From: Patescibacteria group bacterium
GTDB taxonomy: Bacteria; Patescibacteriota; SICC01
Assembly (NCBI GenBank): GCA_009694835.1
Contig: SICC01000003.1
Coordinates: 1 to 39,007 of the forward strand
Direction of reading: 5' to 3'
DNA: 39,007 nucleotides
The notes beneath the pieces were generated by a model. That model saw nothing but the letters and a program-made list of their open reading frames with translations. It made no database searches and was not told where the DNA came from. Below are positions 7,404-29,276 of the stretch, in pieces. Both the position numbers and the translations under genes were made by a program. Position 1 is the stretch's first letter. Every line of letters begins with the position of its first letter.

Positions 7404-8795
7404 TCAGAGCGCATGTACTGAATCGGTGAAAAACGCGCCGCGCGCACTGTAATTCTCGAACCAGCCGAAACTGGCAGCGGCTGGTGAAAGCAACACCACA
7501 TCTCCGGCTTCGGCCAACTCCAGAGCGGCTGATAGGATGGCTTCTTTCTTGGTAACCGGCTTGATGGGCGGGACTGGCTTGCCAGCCGTCTTGGCCGCCA
7601 ACGTCACCGATTTCACAATCTGCTCACCTTCTGGCGGAATCGTCACTAGCCCGCGAATGGTTCGGCTGACGATAGTCTCGGCCAGTTCACTGAAGTCCAA
7701 ACCTTTTTCCGATCCGCCAACAATCAGGACAACTGGATCGTCAAAACTCTCAACCGCCGGGATAGTCGCCGTCGGATTAGTGGCGTAAGAGTCGTTGAAG
7801 AATCGGATACCGTTCTTGTCGCGGATGAATTCGAGGTGATACGGCAGCCCATGGTATTCGACGATAGCTAGTTTCATCTGCTCCGGCGTTACGTTGAACG
7901 ACGCGACGGCGATTGAAGCCGCCAAAACGTTAGCCTGATTGTGTTTGCCGGGAACGGGGATGTCACTGACGGCGCAGACGTCCGCCGTAACGCTCTCAGT
8001 TTCTAGATGAACCTGCTCATTTTCAATCCAGGCGCCCGGCGAGACTGGCTTGCGGGTCGAGAACCACTCCACCAGGCCGCCGGTGTGTTCCGCCATGGCC
8101 TTGGCACCAGCATCGTCCGCGTTCAGAATGGTCAGATCGTCAGGCCGTTGGTGAGTCACCAGACTACGTTTGGCTTGGCGGTATTCTTCGACACTGGCGT
8201 GACGATCTAAATGGTCAGACGTCAGGTTGGTGATGATCGCCACGTGTGGGCTTTGGTCCAGGTCTTCCAGCTGGAAACTGGAGAGTTCAAGTACCACGAT
8301 ACTGTCTGCAGTTACTTGATCCAGAAACTCCAGCGGTGGGTTACCGATGTTGCCTCCCAGGAACGATTTCTTATCGCCCGCCTGCAGCATGGCGTGAATC
8401 AACCCGGCCGTCGTCCCTTTACCTTTGGTTCCGCTAATCCCGACAATCGGTGCCGGACAGAGTTCCATGAATAGTTGAATGTGTGAAGTCACTACCACAC
8501 CCTCTTCGCGCGCCGCTACGAGTGCTGAGTCGGACATCGGTAGTAACGGCGTTCGGAATACGACGTCGAAGTCCGTTAGATTCTTGAGATAATCATCCCC
8601 TAACCGCCAGTTGGTAACACCGAGCTCGGATAATTCTTCATACGCCGCACCAAGTTCGTCCTCAGACGCCCGATCGCAAACGGTAATACTCGCACCGCGA
8701 TCGATTAACCAGCGCGCCGTCGCGGATCCCTCCACGCCAAGTCCAAGCACGCCGATCTTTTTCTCAGTCAGCGATTCCGGTAACGTTGCGGTCAT
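7404..8795 (-). CDS. murD: UDP-N-acetylmuramoylalanine--D-glutamate ligase
   Basis: A 463-residue Mur ligase that adds D-Glu to UDP-MurNAc-L-Ala in the cytosol during peptidoglycan synthesis. The N-terminal Rossmann part begins KKIGVLGLGVEGSATARWL. The ATP loop GTKGKGTT is at residues 122-129, followed by GGNIGNPPL, ELSSFQLE, NLTSDHLDRH and the C-terminal NDSYATNPTAT block. I placed the start at ATG 8795; earlier in-frame codons lie inside the upstream membrane-protein gene and add no homologous sequence. It follows that gene by 2 nt, so it is probably coupled. Peptidoglycan synthesis here fits the M23 and SpoIID proteins in the window. Confidence 0.95.
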   Translation of the reverse strand: MTATLPESLTEKKIGVLGLGVEGSATARWLIDRGASITVCDRASEDELGAAYEELSELGVTNWRLGDDYLKNLTDFDVVFRTPLLPMSDSALVAAREEGVVVTSHIQLFMELCPAPIVGISGTKGKGTTAGLIHAMLQAGDKKSFLGGNIGNPPLEFLDQVTADSIVVLELSSFQLEDLDQSPHVAIITNLTSDHLDRHASVEEYRQAKRSLVTHQRPDDLTILNADDAGAKAMAEHTGGLVEWFSTRKPVSPGAWIENEQVHLETESVTADVCAVSDIPVPGKHNQANVLAASIAVASFNVTPEQMKLAIVEYHGLPYHLEFIRDKNGIRFFNDSYATNPTATIPAVESFDDPVVLIVGGSEKGLDFSELAETIVSRTIRGLVTIPPEGEQIVKSVTLAAKTAGKPVPPIKPVTKKEAILSAALELAEAGDVVLLSPAAASFGWFENYSARGAFFTDSVHAL

Positions 8796-8797
8796 AG

Positions 8798-9010
8798 CTA
8801 TCCCTGCCGCGCTAAGTAGGCAATCTCGAATCCGAAGGCAATCCAGGCCAACACGGTGAAGAACCAGACCCACTTGCTGCGAAGGGCTTTTTTGAGTGCC
8901 CAACGCGGATCGTCATGCCAGCGGTAGTGTTTCAGAAAGACGATTCCGGCTACAAATAGTCCCACGCCGAACAAACGACCGAAGAGGAGCGGGATGCTGT
9001 AGCCGAACAT
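8798..9010 (-). CDS. Small two-helix membrane protein
   Basis: 70 residues with two hydrophobic helices (about 5-26 and 48-66) flanking a basic, aromatic segment (KHYRWHDDPRWALKKALRSKW). No family is recognised. A GGAG Shine-Dalgarno lies upstream of ATG 9010. The gene sits between the ABC transporter ATPase (30-nt gap) and murD (2-nt gap), so all are probably co-transcribed. Confidence 0.6.
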   Translation of the reverse strand: MFGYSIPLLFGRLFGVGLFVAGIVFLKHYRWHDDPRWALKKALRSKWVWFFTVLAWIAFGFEIAYLARQG

Positions 9011-11241: not shown

Positions 11242-12954
11242 TCACTTCACGGTAAACGGCCACCAGACATCATCCGGACCGAACCACGTCAACCCTTCGG
11301 CGACTGGCTGGAAATACTCCGGATACATCCCGGACGGCAGTCCGTTCATCACCCGAACCGGCATGGTAAACGAAAACAGCTCGCCGGGATTGACCCGGTC
11401 CTGATCCAACCGGACACCCTGGGCCTGGTTCGACCCGACCGCCCGCTGAGAGGTCCGATCCACGAAACCGCTTTCGCGATTGCGCGGATGACTTCCCCGC
11501 AGATTCACCGGAGCGGCTCCATCGGGAAACAACACCGCTTCCCCGATGTTCCGGTAGGTCACCTTCACTTCCCCGGTCCCGCCCCACTGGAGCGGACCGA
11601 GATAGGTCTGGGTGATCCATTTGGCGGCGTACTCGCCCGCGGTAAACGGGAGATGGTACCGGTCACCGACCTGAAACGCCAGGAACACGCCGAGCTGCAG
11701 ACCGAACCACTGCCGGCCTTCGACCACTGGAGCGAAATACTGCACTCCCCGGCCAGCCGGAATCCCGGCCGGCACCGTGAAGGTCGCCCGGAAATGACCG
11801 ACCTGACCCGGTGCGACCGATTGCTCAGCCAGCGCCACCCGGTTCGGACTGAGCCAGCCGGCGTCGGCGAACCGGAACGGCAGGTCACGCGGATTCTGCG
11901 TGCCAAGCCGCACTGGATTCGCACCGTTGGAATACCAGGTACACGTCCCCGTGTTCCGGAGACTGACCTCCAGCTGACCGGAACCGCCCGGCGCCGTCAA
12001 TGGCGACACCGACTGTCCGGCAAAGGCGGCCGTGTAACAGGCCGGCTTCACCCGCAGCACGAACGACGGCAGGACACCAGGAATGAATTCCCCGGTGGCC
12101 CGGTCGAGGACGCGGAACTGGAACCGATAGTCACCCGGCGGATTGATCTCCTCCGGATTGACGTGGAACCGCACATTGGTGCCAGTTCCCGGTTCGACCC
12201 GCTGGCGATCACCGGGAATCGAATTCAACGATTCCCAGCCGAGTGCCCGCCGCAGGTTCTGCGGCGGATCGCTCACCAGTACCAGCCGGGCATCTCCCCA
12301 GACACGGGTACCGTTGTTCCAGAGGTTGTACCCGATTGGAACCTTGGCGCCATCGCCCTGACTGATTGCCACCACGCCGTTCCCATCCATCGGAAACTGC
12401 GCGTTGAGCGTGCCACGGTACTCACCACCGCGATTGCGGCTAGTGACCGACTGGCCCCGCCCCGGCACTCCGGCTTCGACGAACCGCGACGGCAGACTGA
12501 TGCCGTTACCATTCTCGAGCTGGTAGTGGAGGTGCGGACCAGACGAGCTCCCGGTGGTTCCGGATCGCCCGATCAGCTGGGCCTGACCAACCGACTGACC
12601 GCGGCCGACTGCCAACGATGACAGGTGGCCGTAGCGGGAACACGTACCGTCGCCGTAGCAGACGGTGACCGTATTCCCCCAACCGCCATTCCATCCTCCG
12701 GACGCAATCGAGACGCGGCCAGGGGCGGCGGACACTACTGGCGTCCCGGACGGCAGGTTGAAATCCCAACCGTACCGGGTGTACTGCGTGTTGTGGCTGT
12801 ACCCGCCGTTGTTGCCTTGGATGACCCGGTAGGTCGCCCCGTACTGCCACGGCAGGTAGGTCGGAGGCTGTGCCTGTGCGTGAGTCACGAGTATCGCAAA
12901 CGCGATCATCATGGCCACGAACCAGAACAGCCCCTTCAGCAGTGCACCGAACAT
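11242..12954 (-). CDS. Secreted M23-family (LytM-like) protein with NBR1-like Ig repeats
   Basis: 570 residues. A signal peptide (hydrophobic 8-28, AQA cleavage region) precedes an M23 domain at about 35-165 with YGWDFNLPSGTPV, SRYGHLS (His110), and SGPHLHYQ (His141, His143). The standard HxxxD first ligand pair is absent; His54 and Asp64 are the nearest candidates, so activity is uncertain. About residues 180-570 form three Ig-like modules with Trp, RD and PG patterns (for example NPVRLGTQNPRD, YFAPVVEGRQWFG) that resemble NBR1-type Ig domains and recur in the giant protein at 22849. A strong AAAGGAG Shine-Dalgarno precedes ATG 12954. It likely binds or cuts peptidoglycan outside the cell. 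Confidence 0.85.
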   Translation of the reverse strand: MFGALLKGLFWFVAMMIAFAILVTHAQAQPPTYLPWQYGATYRVIQGNNGGYSHNTQYTRYGWDFNLPSGTPVVSAAPGRVSIASGGWNGGWGNTVTVCYGDGTCSRYGHLSSLAVGRGQSVGQAQLIGRSGTTGSSSGPHLHYQLENGNGISLPSRFVEAGVPGRGQSVTSRNRGGEYRGTLNAQFPMDGNGVVAISQGDGAKVPIGYNLWNNGTRVWGDARLVLVSDPPQNLRRALGWESLNSIPGDRQRVEPGTGTNVRFHVNPEEINPPGDYRFQFRVLDRATGEFIPGVLPSFVLRVKPACYTAAFAGQSVSPLTAPGGSGQLEVSLRNTGTCTWYSNGANPVRLGTQNPRDLPFRFADAGWLSPNRVALAEQSVAPGQVGHFRATFTVPAGIPAGRGVQYFAPVVEGRQWFGLQLGVFLAFQVGDRYHLPFTAGEYAAKWITQTYLGPLQWGGTGEVKVTYRNIGEAVLFPDGAAPVNLRGSHPRNRESGFVDRTSQRAVGSNQAQGVRLDQDRVNPGELFSFTMPVRVMNGLPSGMYPEYFQPVAEGLTWFGPDDVWWPFTVK

Positions 12955-22257: not shown

Positions 22258-22839
22258 TCACGAGTCTGCTTCGTGCGTTTTTCGCCAGTGTTCTTCGCTT
22301 TCGTAAAAAATATTCTCGGCCGAGTCAAAATGGTATCCTTCTCCCTCGAATTCTGCTCTGGTCCCTCCTGCGTATTCTTTTTGTAAATCCTCCAAGGTAT
22401 ACCTCGGAACCCAATTCATAGGCTGTTGCTGAAATTCTCCAGCTAGTAACCCGAACCACTCCCGCACATCTCTAATAGTTGTTTCCTCGTCAACGTCCAT
22501 TTTAAACGAAACGTACCTCTTGCCGTCATGACTGCTCGACTTAGCATCTAACGCGTCCGCAATCTCTCGGTTAGCTAGAGAAAGGGAGTCGTAGTCAATT
22601 CGTACGTACGCTCTTCGGCCTCCGCTTACATCAGCACCACATGCTGAGCTCATGACAGTCTTAATGTTTTTGTCGTACAGCTCTTCACATGCGTCCACAA
22701 GTGGCAGCTCGACTATTTCCGAAAGGTACTCACGGGTTCTGACGATGCCTCCGCGACCAATGGATGGGACTTCGGAAAGTAGCGTCGTGTCACTGACGTT
22801 GTATTTTGCCGAATCGGGCTTGGTTTCCTTTTCAGACAT
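22258..22839 (-). CDS. Hypothetical cytosolic protein
   Basis: 193 residues, acidic and without signal peptide or membrane helix. The middle part, from LVDACEELYDKNIKTVMSSA to YVRIDYDSLSLANREIA, reads like a small alpha/beta domain I have seen annotated only as hypothetical in CPR genomes. No catalytic motif is clear. Its base composition looks less G+C-rich than its neighbours. It follows the giant secreted protein by 9 nt, so it is probably in the same transcript. Confidence 0.65.
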   Translation of the reverse strand: MSEKETKPDSAKYNVSDTTLLSEVPSIGRGGIVRTREYLSEIVELPLVDACEELYDKNIKTVMSSACGADVSGGRRAYVRIDYDSLSLANREIADALDAKSSSHDGKRYVSFKMDVDEETTIRDVREWFGLLAGEFQQQPMNWVPRYTLEDLQKEYAGGTRAEFEGEGYHFDSAENIFYESEEHWRKTHEADS

Positions 22840-22848
22840 GATGATTAG

Positions 22849-25800
22849 CTAGTACAAGAACCCGAGATTCACACCCTGGTAGTAGAACTTCAGAATCGTC
22901 GGGAAATTGCGGCCGGCGTTGGCTTGATTAAAGGCACCCCACTGCGCCAGGCCAATTCCATGTCCGAATCCACGGCCGCCGAACACCCAGTCGTTACCGC
23001 TGCGACCGATGCCGGTGATCACCGAAGACCGCGTTGTTAAATCACTGCGCTGTGTATCAGCTGGCTGGGTGTGGGTGGTGACGCTGCCGCCGCTAGTTGT
23101 CAGTCGAATCGTTTTGGCCCGGCCTGACGGATAGTACTCGAGGATGTCGATTGAATCGATATTGCCGGTGTGACCAAAGTTCGACTGCAAGGTGGCGTTG
23201 GAGACGGTTTTAGACCAAATGTCCGGTTTTTGATACGGGTCGGACACGCTTCGCAGGTAATCGATCGGTGAGCCACCCCAGGCATTTTCGTTACTTTCAG
23301 TAGCTCCACCTGAGTCAGAGTAGTAATAGGCTTGAATCAACGAACCACCCTTATAGATGGCCGTGCCCTTGGTGCCGTTAATGGCCGTGACGTGGTTCGG
23401 CTTGGCGGCCTCGTTGTTGTAGCCGTTGTAGACCTGATCCTGAGTAGTGTCATAGATGTCAAAGACGGCGTTCTGCGGGTTGGCGATGCGCCTGGCACCA
23501 TAGGTTCGAGCCGCCACCACTTGGGCCCGAATGGCTTCTGGAGGCCAGGAGTCCGGAACCTCTCCAAGACCTTTGAGGTAATCTTCCAGATTGATGTCGT
23601 TGACCAACCAGGTTCCTGGTCCGCCGTTCTTGATCATAATGGCGCCGCGGAAGCGATTATTACCGGCGTTGTCAGCCAAGTTACCAACCCCGAGTACCCC
23701 GCCAGCTGTCTGTTCCGCTCGAATTGGTGAGGACGAATCGTACGTCTGACCGGCACCGCCGGCATGATACTGCAAGCCGTCCCAACTCAGACTCATGACC
23801 TGGTTGGCCGGAATAGTTCCGTAAATCGTGCCGGCTTCGTCTTTAAAGGTGACCGGACCGTCGGCCGAGAAGACGGCTGAGGTCTGCTGGGCCAAACCGA
23901 CCTTGATCGGCTTCTGGACCGTCATCGTCCAGTAGACACCCCGGTCAGTCATCCACTGAATGCCATCAACCACCGGCGTGAAGTATTCATTGTAGAAACC
24001 TGGGGGAGGGTTGCCGGTAATCTTAAAGTCGAATTCACCGACTTCACCCGGTGCAATCGAGGTTTCTCCGCTCACGTCCTTATCCGAATCAGTAATATTG
24101 TGAGCTAACTTGATCCGGTTCGGACTCTGCCAGCCCTGGCCGGACGTATAGAATCCGGAAAGCCGATCACGGGCTCGATCAGTTCCCAGCTTCACTGGGT
24201 TGGCACCATCTGAGTGCCAGGTTTGCTGTCCGGTATTTCGAACGCGCAGAGTCACGTCAGACGTGCCATCCTTGTTGACGGTCGGGTAGGCCGACTGGCT
24301 GACCGGTTGATAATCCCAGTTTGGACCAACTGGCGGCGGTACGTACATATCCCAGTAGATTCCTTTGTCACCGAGCCAGGCAAATCCTTCCTCGACCGGT
24401 TCAAAATACTCTCGGAAGTTTCCACCGCTACCTGGTGCCACAAAGTCAAAGCTGTAGCGAGCGGTCTGTCCGGGTGCTACTGACGAACCTGGGGTTAGCG
24501 TTCCACCGCTCACCGTTCCAGCGAATTTTGCCAATCGGTTGGCACTCTGCCAGGTGTTGTTATTCCACGGGCTGGCGCGGTCACGCGAGCGGCCGGCTCC
24601 AACGTTCAAGTTGTAGAGCGTATTATTTCGCCAGGTCGCCGTTCCGGTATTGGTGATGTCGAGCGTGACGGAACGACGTTCACCCGGCTGCATGACTGAC
24701 GGTGGGTAGGTCTGGCTCGCCCAATTGTAGGTGTAGGTTCGCGGTTGGACGGTCATGTCCCAAAACACACCCTGGTCTTCCAGCCAGCCCGAACCATCGC
24801 GCACTAACTGAACGTACTCGCGGAAATTAGCATTGCTACCAACCGGCGGACCGGTGATGGTGTATGGGAATCGGGCGGTCTCACCAGGATGGACAGTGGC
24901 TGTCGTGACGACCGATCCGCTCTCAACCCGACCGCTGAAGGTGGCCGGACGGTTTGGAGAAATCCAGCTGGACGAGTAGAACGGTGAGAAGCGATCGCGC
25001 GGATGACTGGTCGCCAACCGCATGGGATTGGAACCGGTGTTAGACCAGTCACTCGATCCGACGTTCTTGTAGTCGACGTAGACAGTAGTCTGCTTACCCG
25101 ACCCGACCGTTGGATAGACTGATTGTCCGGCCCATTGCGACGAATATGCCGGTAACTGATTAAGCGCTCCTTGGGCATTCAGCCGCCCGTTGCCATACAG
25201 ACTGGTTGACGCTTGGCCGCCCATGCCGGCTACCTTGTCAGCTCCATTTTTCATCGCATTAATGATGGCCGTATTCGAAAGATACGGATTGAGCCCAGCC
25301 AGCAGCGCGGCCACCCCGGACACCTGCGGCGTCGAGAGTGAGGTACCGCTGAACGACGCATATTGGTTATTGACGGGAACACCACCAGATACTCCCTGAA
25401 CGGTCATGATTCCCGATCCCGGAGCCGTGAGGTCGAGTCCCGCCCCGCCATTCGAAAAGCTGGAGCGTACATCATTCGAGGTAGTCGATCCGACGGCCAC
25501 CGCTTTCGGGTTGTAGGCCGGGTAGTCGATGGTGCTTTTACTACCGTCGTTGCCAGAGGCCGCGGCGATGATTTCTCCGGCCGCATCAGCGTCATCAATC
25601 GCATCGTCGGTAGCCGTATCACTGGTTACCCCAAACGCACCGAGGCTCAAATTCATTACTTTGGCACCGACCGCGGTCGCATAGCGGATGCCTTCGGCCA
25701 CATCTTGGAACGACCCGAAGCCGCTACTATCGAGCACTTTAATCGGCACATATTTGCCTTGCCAAGTCAGTCCGGCCACACCGATTCCGTTATTGGTATT

Positions 25801-26547
25801 GGCCGCGAAAACACCGGTCGTCAGGCTGCCGTGACCGTGATCGTCCATCGGTCCATCGCTGTCGTTATGGAACTTGCCTCCCGAAAACGTTCCGTTCGCA
25901 AAGTCCATGCCGTAGTAGTCATCAACGTACCCATTGTCATCATCGTCGATGTTGTTGTCCGGAATTTCGTTGGTATTGACCCAGTTGCGGCCGCTCAAAT
26001 CTTGGTGGTTCCAATTCACTCCCGTATCGATACTGGCGATGGTGACGGAACTATCGCCAGTCGTGCGATCCCAGGCCGTCGGAAGCGACATTTTTGGTAG
26101 GGCGTATTGTGAACCGTAGTTCGGATCGTTCGGAACAGTGGTCGCGGTCACTACATAGTTTGGGTTCACTTTGGTGACGCCGGCAATCGTCCGGACCCGC
26201 CCGGTCTCGGTGTTTAGATTGGCCTGGGTGGGTAGCTCGAGTTTGTAAATCGATGGCAGTCCGGTTTCTTCGACTGAGTTTCCGCTCGCCTGAAGCGCCG
26301 CCGGGTCAGCCGTCTTGACGAGTAATTCACCAGCGATAGCCTTGACCGGCTTACCGTTAACCATAACGTCGGTAACTGGTTGACCGTCCACACTCGTAAC
26401 CTTGGCGAGACGTTCCTGACTACCCTTAAACGCCTGCTTTTCAGCCGAGTCATTCGAGGTAGACTGCTTTGGCGCCGCAGAATGCATAGCAAGCCAGGTA
26501 AGAGCACCTACTACGAGCACTATGGCGAGGAACGCGAGACGTTTCAT
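22849..26547 (-). CDS. Giant secreted subtilisin / NBR1-like Ig / SpoIID fusion protein
   Basis: 1232 residues. A signal or anchor helix (3-21) is followed by an inhibitor-like propeptide, then an S8 domain with Asp174 (SIDTG), His239 (HGHGSLTTG), Asn333 and Ser403 (FSGTSLSTP). Three Ig-like repeats follow (about 470-600, 605-737, 745-877), each with W, RDR and YWDM/WTMTV patterns and similar to those of the M23-family protein. The C-terminus (about 880-1232) is a SpoIID/LytB domain with the catalytic-type Glu996 in GLGEVP and YSDSGGATES. SpoIID enzymes cut denuded glycan strands. I used ATG 26547 because the promoter at 26587-26615 excludes the upstream ATG 26607. It likely acts on cell walls and proteins outside the cell. 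Confidence 0.9.
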   Translation of the reverse strand: MKRLAFLAIVLVVGALTWLAMHSAAPKQSTSNDSAEKQAFKGSQERLAKVTSVDGQPVTDVMVNGKPVKAIAGELLVKTADPAALQASGNSVEETGLPSIYKLELPTQANLNTETGRVRTIAGVTKVNPNYVVTATTVPNDPNYGSQYALPKMSLPTAWDRTTGDSSVTIASIDTGVNWNHQDLSGRNWVNTNEIPDNNIDDDDNGYVDDYYGMDFANGTFSGGKFHNDSDGPMDDHGHGSLTTGVFAANTNNGIGVAGLTWQGKYVPIKVLDSSGFGSFQDVAEGIRYATAVGAKVMNLSLGAFGVTSDTATDDAIDDADAAGEIIAAASGNDGSKSTIDYPAYNPKAVAVGSTTSNDVRSSFSNGGAGLDLTAPGSGIMTVQGVSGGVPVNNQYASFSGTSLSTPQVSGVAALLAGLNPYLSNTAIINAMKNGADKVAGMGGQASTSLYGNGRLNAQGALNQLPAYSSQWAGQSVYPTVGSGKQTTVYVDYKNVGSSDWSNTGSNPMRLATSHPRDRFSPFYSSSWISPNRPATFSGRVESGSVVTTATVHPGETARFPYTITGPPVGSNANFREYVQLVRDGSGWLEDQGVFWDMTVQPRTYTYNWASQTYPPSVMQPGERRSVTLDITNTGTATWRNNTLYNLNVGAGRSRDRASPWNNNTWQSANRLAKFAGTVSGGTLTPGSSVAPGQTARYSFDFVAPGSGGNFREYFEPVEEGFAWLGDKGIYWDMYVPPPVGPNWDYQPVSQSAYPTVNKDGTSDVTLRVRNTGQQTWHSDGANPVKLGTDRARDRLSGFYTSGQGWQSPNRIKLAHNITDSDKDVSGETSIAPGEVGEFDFKITGNPPPGFYNEYFTPVVDGIQWMTDRGVYWTMTVQKPIKVGLAQQTSAVFSADGPVTFKDEAGTIYGTIPANQVMSLSWDGLQYHAGGAGQTYDSSSPIRAEQTAGGVLGVGNLADNAGNNRFRGAIMIKNGGPGTWLVNDINLEDYLKGLGEVPDSWPPEAIRAQVVAARTYGARRIANPQNAVFDIYDTTQDQVYNGYNNEAAKPNHVTAINGTKGTAIYKGGSLIQAYYYSDSGGATESNENAWGGSPIDYLRSVSDPYQKPDIWSKTVSNATLQSNFGHTGNIDSIDILEYYPSGRAKTIRLTTSGGSVTTHTQPADTQRSDLTTRSSVITGIGRSGNDWVFGGRGFGHGIGLAQWGAFNQANAGRNFPTILKFYYQGVNLGFLY

Positions 26548-26586: not shown

Positions 26587-26615
26587 AATATAGCTAAAAA
26601 TAGACAATATGTCAA
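26587..26615 (-). promoter_or_regulatory. Sigma70-type promoter of the giant secreted protein
   Basis: TTGACA (26610-26615), 17-bp spacer, TATATT (26587-26592) on the minus strand. The sequence after the -10, AAGCTAATTTTT, resembles that of the promoters at 548-576 and 16067-16095. Confidence 0.85.
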
Positions 26616-28518: not shown

Positions 28519-28884
<366 letters not shown>

Positions 28885-29217
28885 CCCGACCAAACCACAC
28901 GCTAAGTCGCCCGGCTAGAGGTTTTCATAGGGACTACGTTTCGCACTTCATGTGCGAAGCAGCTAGCTATCAAACGTACGCATTTCTGAGCCTTGGCTCA
29001 GAAATGTTATTAAATAGTGTGCCCCGACCAGGATGGGCGCTCTGCGCCTGCGTCGTCGCTCGGACTAAATGCTCGAGCTTCGCTCGGCATTTCTCCTCAC
29101 TCCTCGCATTCGAACCTCGCTCGCCTGTGGCTCGCTGCCAGCTTCTCACCCGACCAAAACACACGCCAAATCACCCGGCCTACGGCCGGGCGCTTCGTCG
29201 TGTGCCCCGACCAGGAT
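28885..29217. repeat. Duplicated tRNA-Lys flank
   Basis: A 31-nt segment (28885-28915 and 29149-29179; 27 of 31 identical) and an 18-nt segment (29017-29034 and 29200-29217, identical, GTGTGCCCCGACCAGGAT) occur in the same order twice. The second 18-nt copy includes the 3' end of tRNA-Lys. In the first unit the two segments are separated by the double-hairpin element A (101 nt), in the second by 20 nt. The stretch 29035-29148 between them holds short hairpins but no gene. Confidence 0.8.
28916..29016 (+). repeat. Double-hairpin element, copy A
   Basis: Hairpin 1 is a 9-bp stem (28938-28946 with 28952-28960) with loop TTCAT. Hairpin 2 is a 12-bp stem (28981-28992 with 28995-29006) ending in CUUG. 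Shared boxes are GAGGTTTTCATA at the start, AGCTAGCT and AACGT between hairpins, and TTATTAAATA at the end. Confidence 0.8.
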
Positions 29218-29276
29218 TCGAACCTGGGACACATGGGTTAAAAGCCCACTGCTCTGCCAACTGAGCTACCGGGGCA
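29203..29276 (-). tRNA. tRNA-Lys (anticodon UUU)
   Basis: 74 nt. The acceptor stem TGCCCCG/CGGGGCA is perfect. The D arm GCTCAGTTGGCAGAGC, anticodon stem GTGGG/CCCAT with loop CTTTTAA, and T arm with GGTTCGAATCC are all present. CCA is not encoded. A TATACT -10 box (29289-29294) lies 12 nt upstream, directly after the terminator of the neighbouring gene. Confidence 0.97.

Follow-up and report, generated by a model that had tools for sequence, protein, structure and literature searches.

The SpoIID protein of C. difficile cuts glycan strands once an amidase has stripped them of their stem peptides, and its catalytic Glu is required for this (PMC6221140). Lytic transglycosylases of patescibacteria have been proposed to compromise the envelopes of host cells (PMC11665869). 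FW (four-tryptophan) domains, the type found in NBR1 and ILRUN, occur in diverse bacterial proteins (PMC9233695, PMC9582228). The locus presented here encodes a lineage-specific fusion of a subtilisin-type (S8) protease with SpoIID, within a modular family of exported wall enzymes. The author of an earlier note on this DNA was not aware of any description of the combination S8–Ig–SpoIID, and our keyword search of the open-licence literature likewise found no description of it. The gene lies in the window analysed, by which we mean the whole stretch of 39,007 nucleotides from a Patescibacteria group bacterium with a very small genome.

The fusion gene (22849..26547) is located on the reverse strand, as are all parts of the protein given below. 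It is a reading frame without internal stop, running from an ATG at 26547 to a stop at 22849, and encodes 1232 amino acids that comprise an export segment, a propeptide-like region, the S8 domain, three Ig repeats (Ig1–Ig3) and a SpoIID/LytB part. A promoter-like pair, TTGACA (26610-26615) and TATATT (26587-26592) with a spacing of 17 bp (26587..26615, reverse strand), can be recognised by eye 5′ of the ATG. Residues 1-24 (26476..26547) form a hydrophobic segment with K/R, a putative Sec signal or signal anchor, which is in keeping with the export proposed in the earlier note; this segment contains no lipobox and, by eye, no clear cleavage site. A similar segment is present in the proteins of the two family mates described below. 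Residues 40-137 (26137..26430; 30-36% identity in the family mates) are probably a propeptide, judging by their position ahead of the S8 domain. The remaining parts are the S8 domain (residues 138-466, 25150..26136), Ig1 (residues 467-604, 24736..25149), Ig2 (residues 605-739, 24331..24735), Ig3 (residues 740-879, 23911..24330), a stretch ahead of the SpoIID core (residues 880-975, 23623..23910; 36-38% identity in the family mates), which would belong to the SpoIID module, and the SpoIID/LytB catalytic part (residues 976-1232, 22852..23622).

Two further reading frames of the window are mentioned for completeness. A gene of 193 amino acids (22258-22839, reverse strand) begins 9 bp beyond the fusion gene; Pfam gave no match for it, and the corresponding neighbourhoods of the two family mates contain no relative. 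The ORF at 28653-29264 (forward strand) encodes a long valine run derived from a simple repeat and is probably not a gene.

Concerning the protease, PF00082 (Peptidase_S8) matches residues 166-454 with 152.3 bits against a cut-off of 21.8 (E=2.3e-44, Pfam search), and the nearest solved structure to the domain is thermitase (1THM, E=3.6e-42). The residues named as catalytic in the earlier note are the correct letters: Asp174 in a DTG motif (26026..26028), His239 in GHGS, which is usually GHGT (25831..25833), and Ser403 in the GTS..TP motif (25339..25341). They are conserved in 33 (with one gap), 34 and 34 of the 34 aligned sequences, respectively. The oxyanion Asn is N333; based on this alignment and on thermitase, both the triad and N333 sit in S8 motifs. 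The window protein thus has the catalytic triad and oxyanion Asn in common with thermitase and other S8 subtilisins, and differs from them in its long C-terminal extension of Ig repeats and SpoIID.

The three Ig repeats recognise one another in a repeat self-comparison at E 1e-19 to 1e-26. PF16158 (N_BRCA1_IG) matches residues 617-719, in Ig2, with 27.1 bits, slightly below the cut-off of 28, and reaches 41.4 bits against the same cut-off in one family mate (G001). An AlphaFold model of Ig1, based on an alignment of five repeats from the window, has a pLDDT of 78 and a pTM of 0.76; its top Foldseek match in the PDB is the FW domain of human NBR1 (4OLE, E 1e-4, TM 0.58/0.64), and the FW domain of ILRUN (6VHI) is at rank 5. 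The Ig repeats are therefore predicted to have an NBR1/FW-type fold, as the NBR1-like label of the earlier note implied. Ig1 and the NBR1/ILRUN FW domain would share this fold at 11% identity. Unlike the latter, the window repeats form an array between two enzymes and have no link to autophagy.

The C-terminal part is recognised by PF08486 (SpoIID; residues 979-1064, 61.1 bits against a cut-off of 23) and by the NCBIfam model TIGR02669 (SpoIID_LytB; residues 981-1228, 198.1 bits against a cut-off of 83.3). Together with that of PF00082, these matches confirm S8 and SpoIID, the two domains whose failure in a domain search would have refuted the earlier note. The best PDB matches of the C-terminal part are 4RWR (E=1e-19), 5I1T and 5TXU. 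Glu996 (23560..23562), the fourth residue singled out earlier, occupies the position of the motif Glu when aligned to 4RWR and is present in 50 of 50 aligned sequences. The domain and its catalytic Glu are thus shared, by sequence, with the SpoIID proteins of endospore formers, whereas the match to the sporulation equivalog TIGR02870 (spore_II_D) is 116.9 bits, under its cut-off of 234.75, and the domain is joined to S8 and Ig. There is no cysteine in the 1232 amino acids, and the protein therefore lacks a Cys/His zinc site of the C. difficile type.

The same architecture is found in both other genomes of the family that were compared (G001 and G002), so that the fusion is present in three of three. 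Their ORFs are 1229-1259 amino acids long and 49-50% identical to the window protein; identity across the family is 42-59% for the S8 domain, the three Ig repeats and the SpoIID core. Gene order around the fusion is also kept, with comEC and ruvB on one side in both genomes, an MBL-fold gene and ruvA also among the shared neighbours, and dnaJ/dnaK on the other side in G002, the genome in which this side was covered. The window comes from a draft assembly of 29 contigs, and the earlier note had itself raised the possibility that two genes were joined by assembly. Because architecture and neighbourhood recur in two relatives, one of which is a single contig of 0.8 Mb, an annotation or assembly artefact can be ruled out with a confidence close to certainty, and the fusion looks like a real gene that is specific to this lineage. 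In the window's own genome no further S8 gene was found, and no SpoIID other than that of the fusion gene has its parts in the standard order; as this genome is 83% complete, another copy of either could be missing from it. The picture is the same in G001, which is 95% complete.

Wider relatives carry the same domains in two genes. In the five genomes of families f24 and f35 an S8-Ig2 gene (721-742 aa) and an Ig3-SpoIID gene (774-792 aa) are present, about 100 kb apart where they lie on one contig; the number of Ig repeats before SpoIID is the same as in the window protein, and in all five genomes the S8-Ig2 gene adjoins the same ruvB and PH-protein genes as the fusion gene does. In family f13 (G051 and G034) the 29443-type and dnaJ genes are again found in the vicinity of the S8-Ig2 gene, as is an Amidase_2-Ig-SpoIID gene. 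The SpoIID domains of the window's family, f24 and f35 form one clade in the tree with a support of 100/100. The S8 tree does not group the fused S8 with the S8 genes of f24 and f35, and a tree that places them together is not rejected by an AU test (p-AU 0.15). The S8 tree thus gives no decision on a sister relation between fused and split S8, and orthology there rests on synteny. Nor does the Ig tree show which repeat derives from which partner. Judged by synteny, the fusion gene stands where relatives have their S8-Ig gene, and it therefore most likely originated by recombination through the shared Ig repeats. In the simplest account, an S8-Ig gene gained Ig-SpoIID in its old place and the free Ig-SpoIID gene was then lost; on grounds of parsimony, one fusion would be preferred to several splits. 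Phage and plasmid origins were considered and rejected: the SpoIID part has two weak phage matches and no viral-contig relative with the patterns used, and the plasmid matches listed lie on the S8 side and span no more than some 40% of the query.

Across the phylum, a SpoIID match at E<=1e-8 is present in 188 of 380 genomes. We read 60 further SpoIID regions, which were picked partly for long ORFs among the first ~150 matches listed. Ig-SpoIID and Amidase_2-Ig-SpoIID proteins are frequent among them. The latter (e.g. in G014, G051, G034, G063 and G199) resemble the window protein in having an N-terminal enzyme, NBR1-like Ig repeats and a C-terminal SpoIID; they differ from it in that the enzyme is an N-acetylmuramoyl-L-alanine amidase instead of S8, and in that their SpoIID is placed elsewhere in the tree. 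None of the 60 regions, chosen among the matches listed, contains S8 inside a SpoIID ORF; given this selection, rare further fusions may exist. Only one region (G017; L142, G017:C10) contains an S8 gene at all, located 10 bp 3′ of a 1398-aa Amidase_2-SpoIID gene on the same strand. A phylum-wide neighbourhood link between S8 and SpoIID was thus not found in these regions beyond G017 and family f13. At one of 60 regions plus f13, the linkage is rare and not clearly above chance, and it is therefore mainly the fusion itself that argues for co-function.

The Ig module is shared with other wall enzymes of the same genome. In the window, an M23 peptidase (11242..12954, reverse strand) carries two Ig repeats akin to those of the fusion, based on Pfam and Ig comparison. 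Elsewhere there are two tandem M23-Ig genes (G000:C23, L088), three with that of the window, and one Amidase_2-Ig enzyme with the same kind of Ig (G000:C1, L087); Amidase_3 was looked for in this genome and not found. A 746-aa Ig protein (G000:C24, L089) has an N-terminal part without a Pfam match. Together with the fusion, the Amidase_2-Ig and the three M23-Ig enzymes indicate that one Ig module serves several types of envelope-degrading enzyme. The genome also contains a SpoIID of a second type (L001:664-2085 on G000:C28, the same as L090:6425-7846), with a coiled coil at its N-terminus; its gene comes after that of a PilB-like ATPase. In this type the C-terminal part (GxxHGLGMSQYGA...) comes before the part with the catalytic Glu, i.e. 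the order is circularly permuted; the permuted order is seen in the profile coordinates of 15 ORFs with two-piece matches, and the type is also found at L093 (G001), L132-L133 and L145-L155.

The domains, residues and export segment of the earlier interpretation stand; Saccharibacteria, the group to which it refers, is not confirmed as the source of this DNA. Saccharibacteria are a large class, which is a poor fit with the window's class of three genomes in the set. The genome has no match to the target of probe TM7-905; a second 16S probe pattern matched none of 16 genomes and therefore discriminates nothing. The S8 domain of a named Uhrbacteria genome groups among sequences of the same phylum (98/97 in the S8 tree), supporting an assignment to Patescibacteria/CPR in the wide sense.

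Given the domains with their intact active-site residues, the conserved fusion, its split relatives and the shared Ig module, we read the protein as an exported fusion of two enzymes, S8-Ig and Ig-SpoIID, that degrades an envelope, most likely at the surface of another cell, be it a neighbour or a host; we give this reading about an even chance. Enzyme activity, order of action, the role of the Ig repeats and the target are what we infer, as follows. The fusion, in one small class, would have united an S8-Ig protease with an Ig-SpoIID lytic transglycosylase, both of them exported proteins of older origin. Loss of the N-terminal segment would activate S8, which would cut envelope protein. The Amidase_2-Ig and M23-Ig enzymes would open the peptide part, after which SpoIID could cut the glycan strands. 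The three FW-type Ig repeats would act as a spacer and probably also as a binding or recruiting part common to these enzymes. Amidase_2-Ig-SpoIID proteins elsewhere would carry out both steps, amidase and SpoIID, in one chain; in the window lineage SpoIID has the protease as its fusion partner instead, and the amidase is encoded as an Ig protein of its own. These enzymes would jointly attack an envelope made up of protein as well as peptidoglycan.

As to whose envelope is attacked, the earlier note named both another cell's surface and the own wall. Secreted enzymes that face outward are the more typical setting for a broad subtilisin with an array of Ig repeats, which speaks against a role on the producer's own wall, and the second, coiled-coil SpoIID could serve that wall instead. 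This outward-facing design and the proposal made for patescibacterial lytic transglycosylases (PMC11665869) favour another cell as the target. Its own wall is also available to the producer, since a MurD-like protein, recognised by eye (7404-8903), suggests that it makes its own peptidoglycan precursors. The protein could thus be anchored by its N-terminal segment and remodel the wall of the producer, e.g. in division or around pili or secretion channels, while S8 would process surface proteins or partner hydrolases to maturity. The lack of a clear cleavage site in that segment, the wall synthesis the genome seems to encode, the action of SpoIID on the cell's own wall in sporulation (PMC6221140), and the presence of SpoIID in about half of the 380 genomes, as expected of a house enzyme, are all consistent with this, and we regard the own-envelope role as a real but tentative option.

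A different division of labour would make S8 mainly a regulator, which processes its own polypeptide and so releases or switches on Ig-SpoIID as a self-activating wall lysin. The propeptide-like segment ahead of S8 would suit this, as would the adjacent genes in G017 and the nearby genes in f13, but the split genes of f24 and f35 lie far apart, and we consider such regulation improbable. Returning to the attack on another cell, its boldest form would be a contact weapon with two warheads, used by an ultrasmall bacterium that lives as an episymbiont or predator, one warhead stripping host surface protein and the other cutting wall glycan, while the FW-type Ig repeats hold the host; amidase, M23 and S8-SpoIID would then be an enzyme set with common binding repeats. 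We put this form forward as a doubtful extension.

Little is known of the means by which the ultrasmall bacteria of this phylum breach other cells or feed on them. The locus offers a concrete and testable set for this problem, i.e. several wall enzymes on one Ig module, in which many families combine SpoIID with an amidase and one class combines it with a subtilisin. Gene neighbourhood by itself would not have revealed the functional link between S8 and SpoIID that the fusion establishes.
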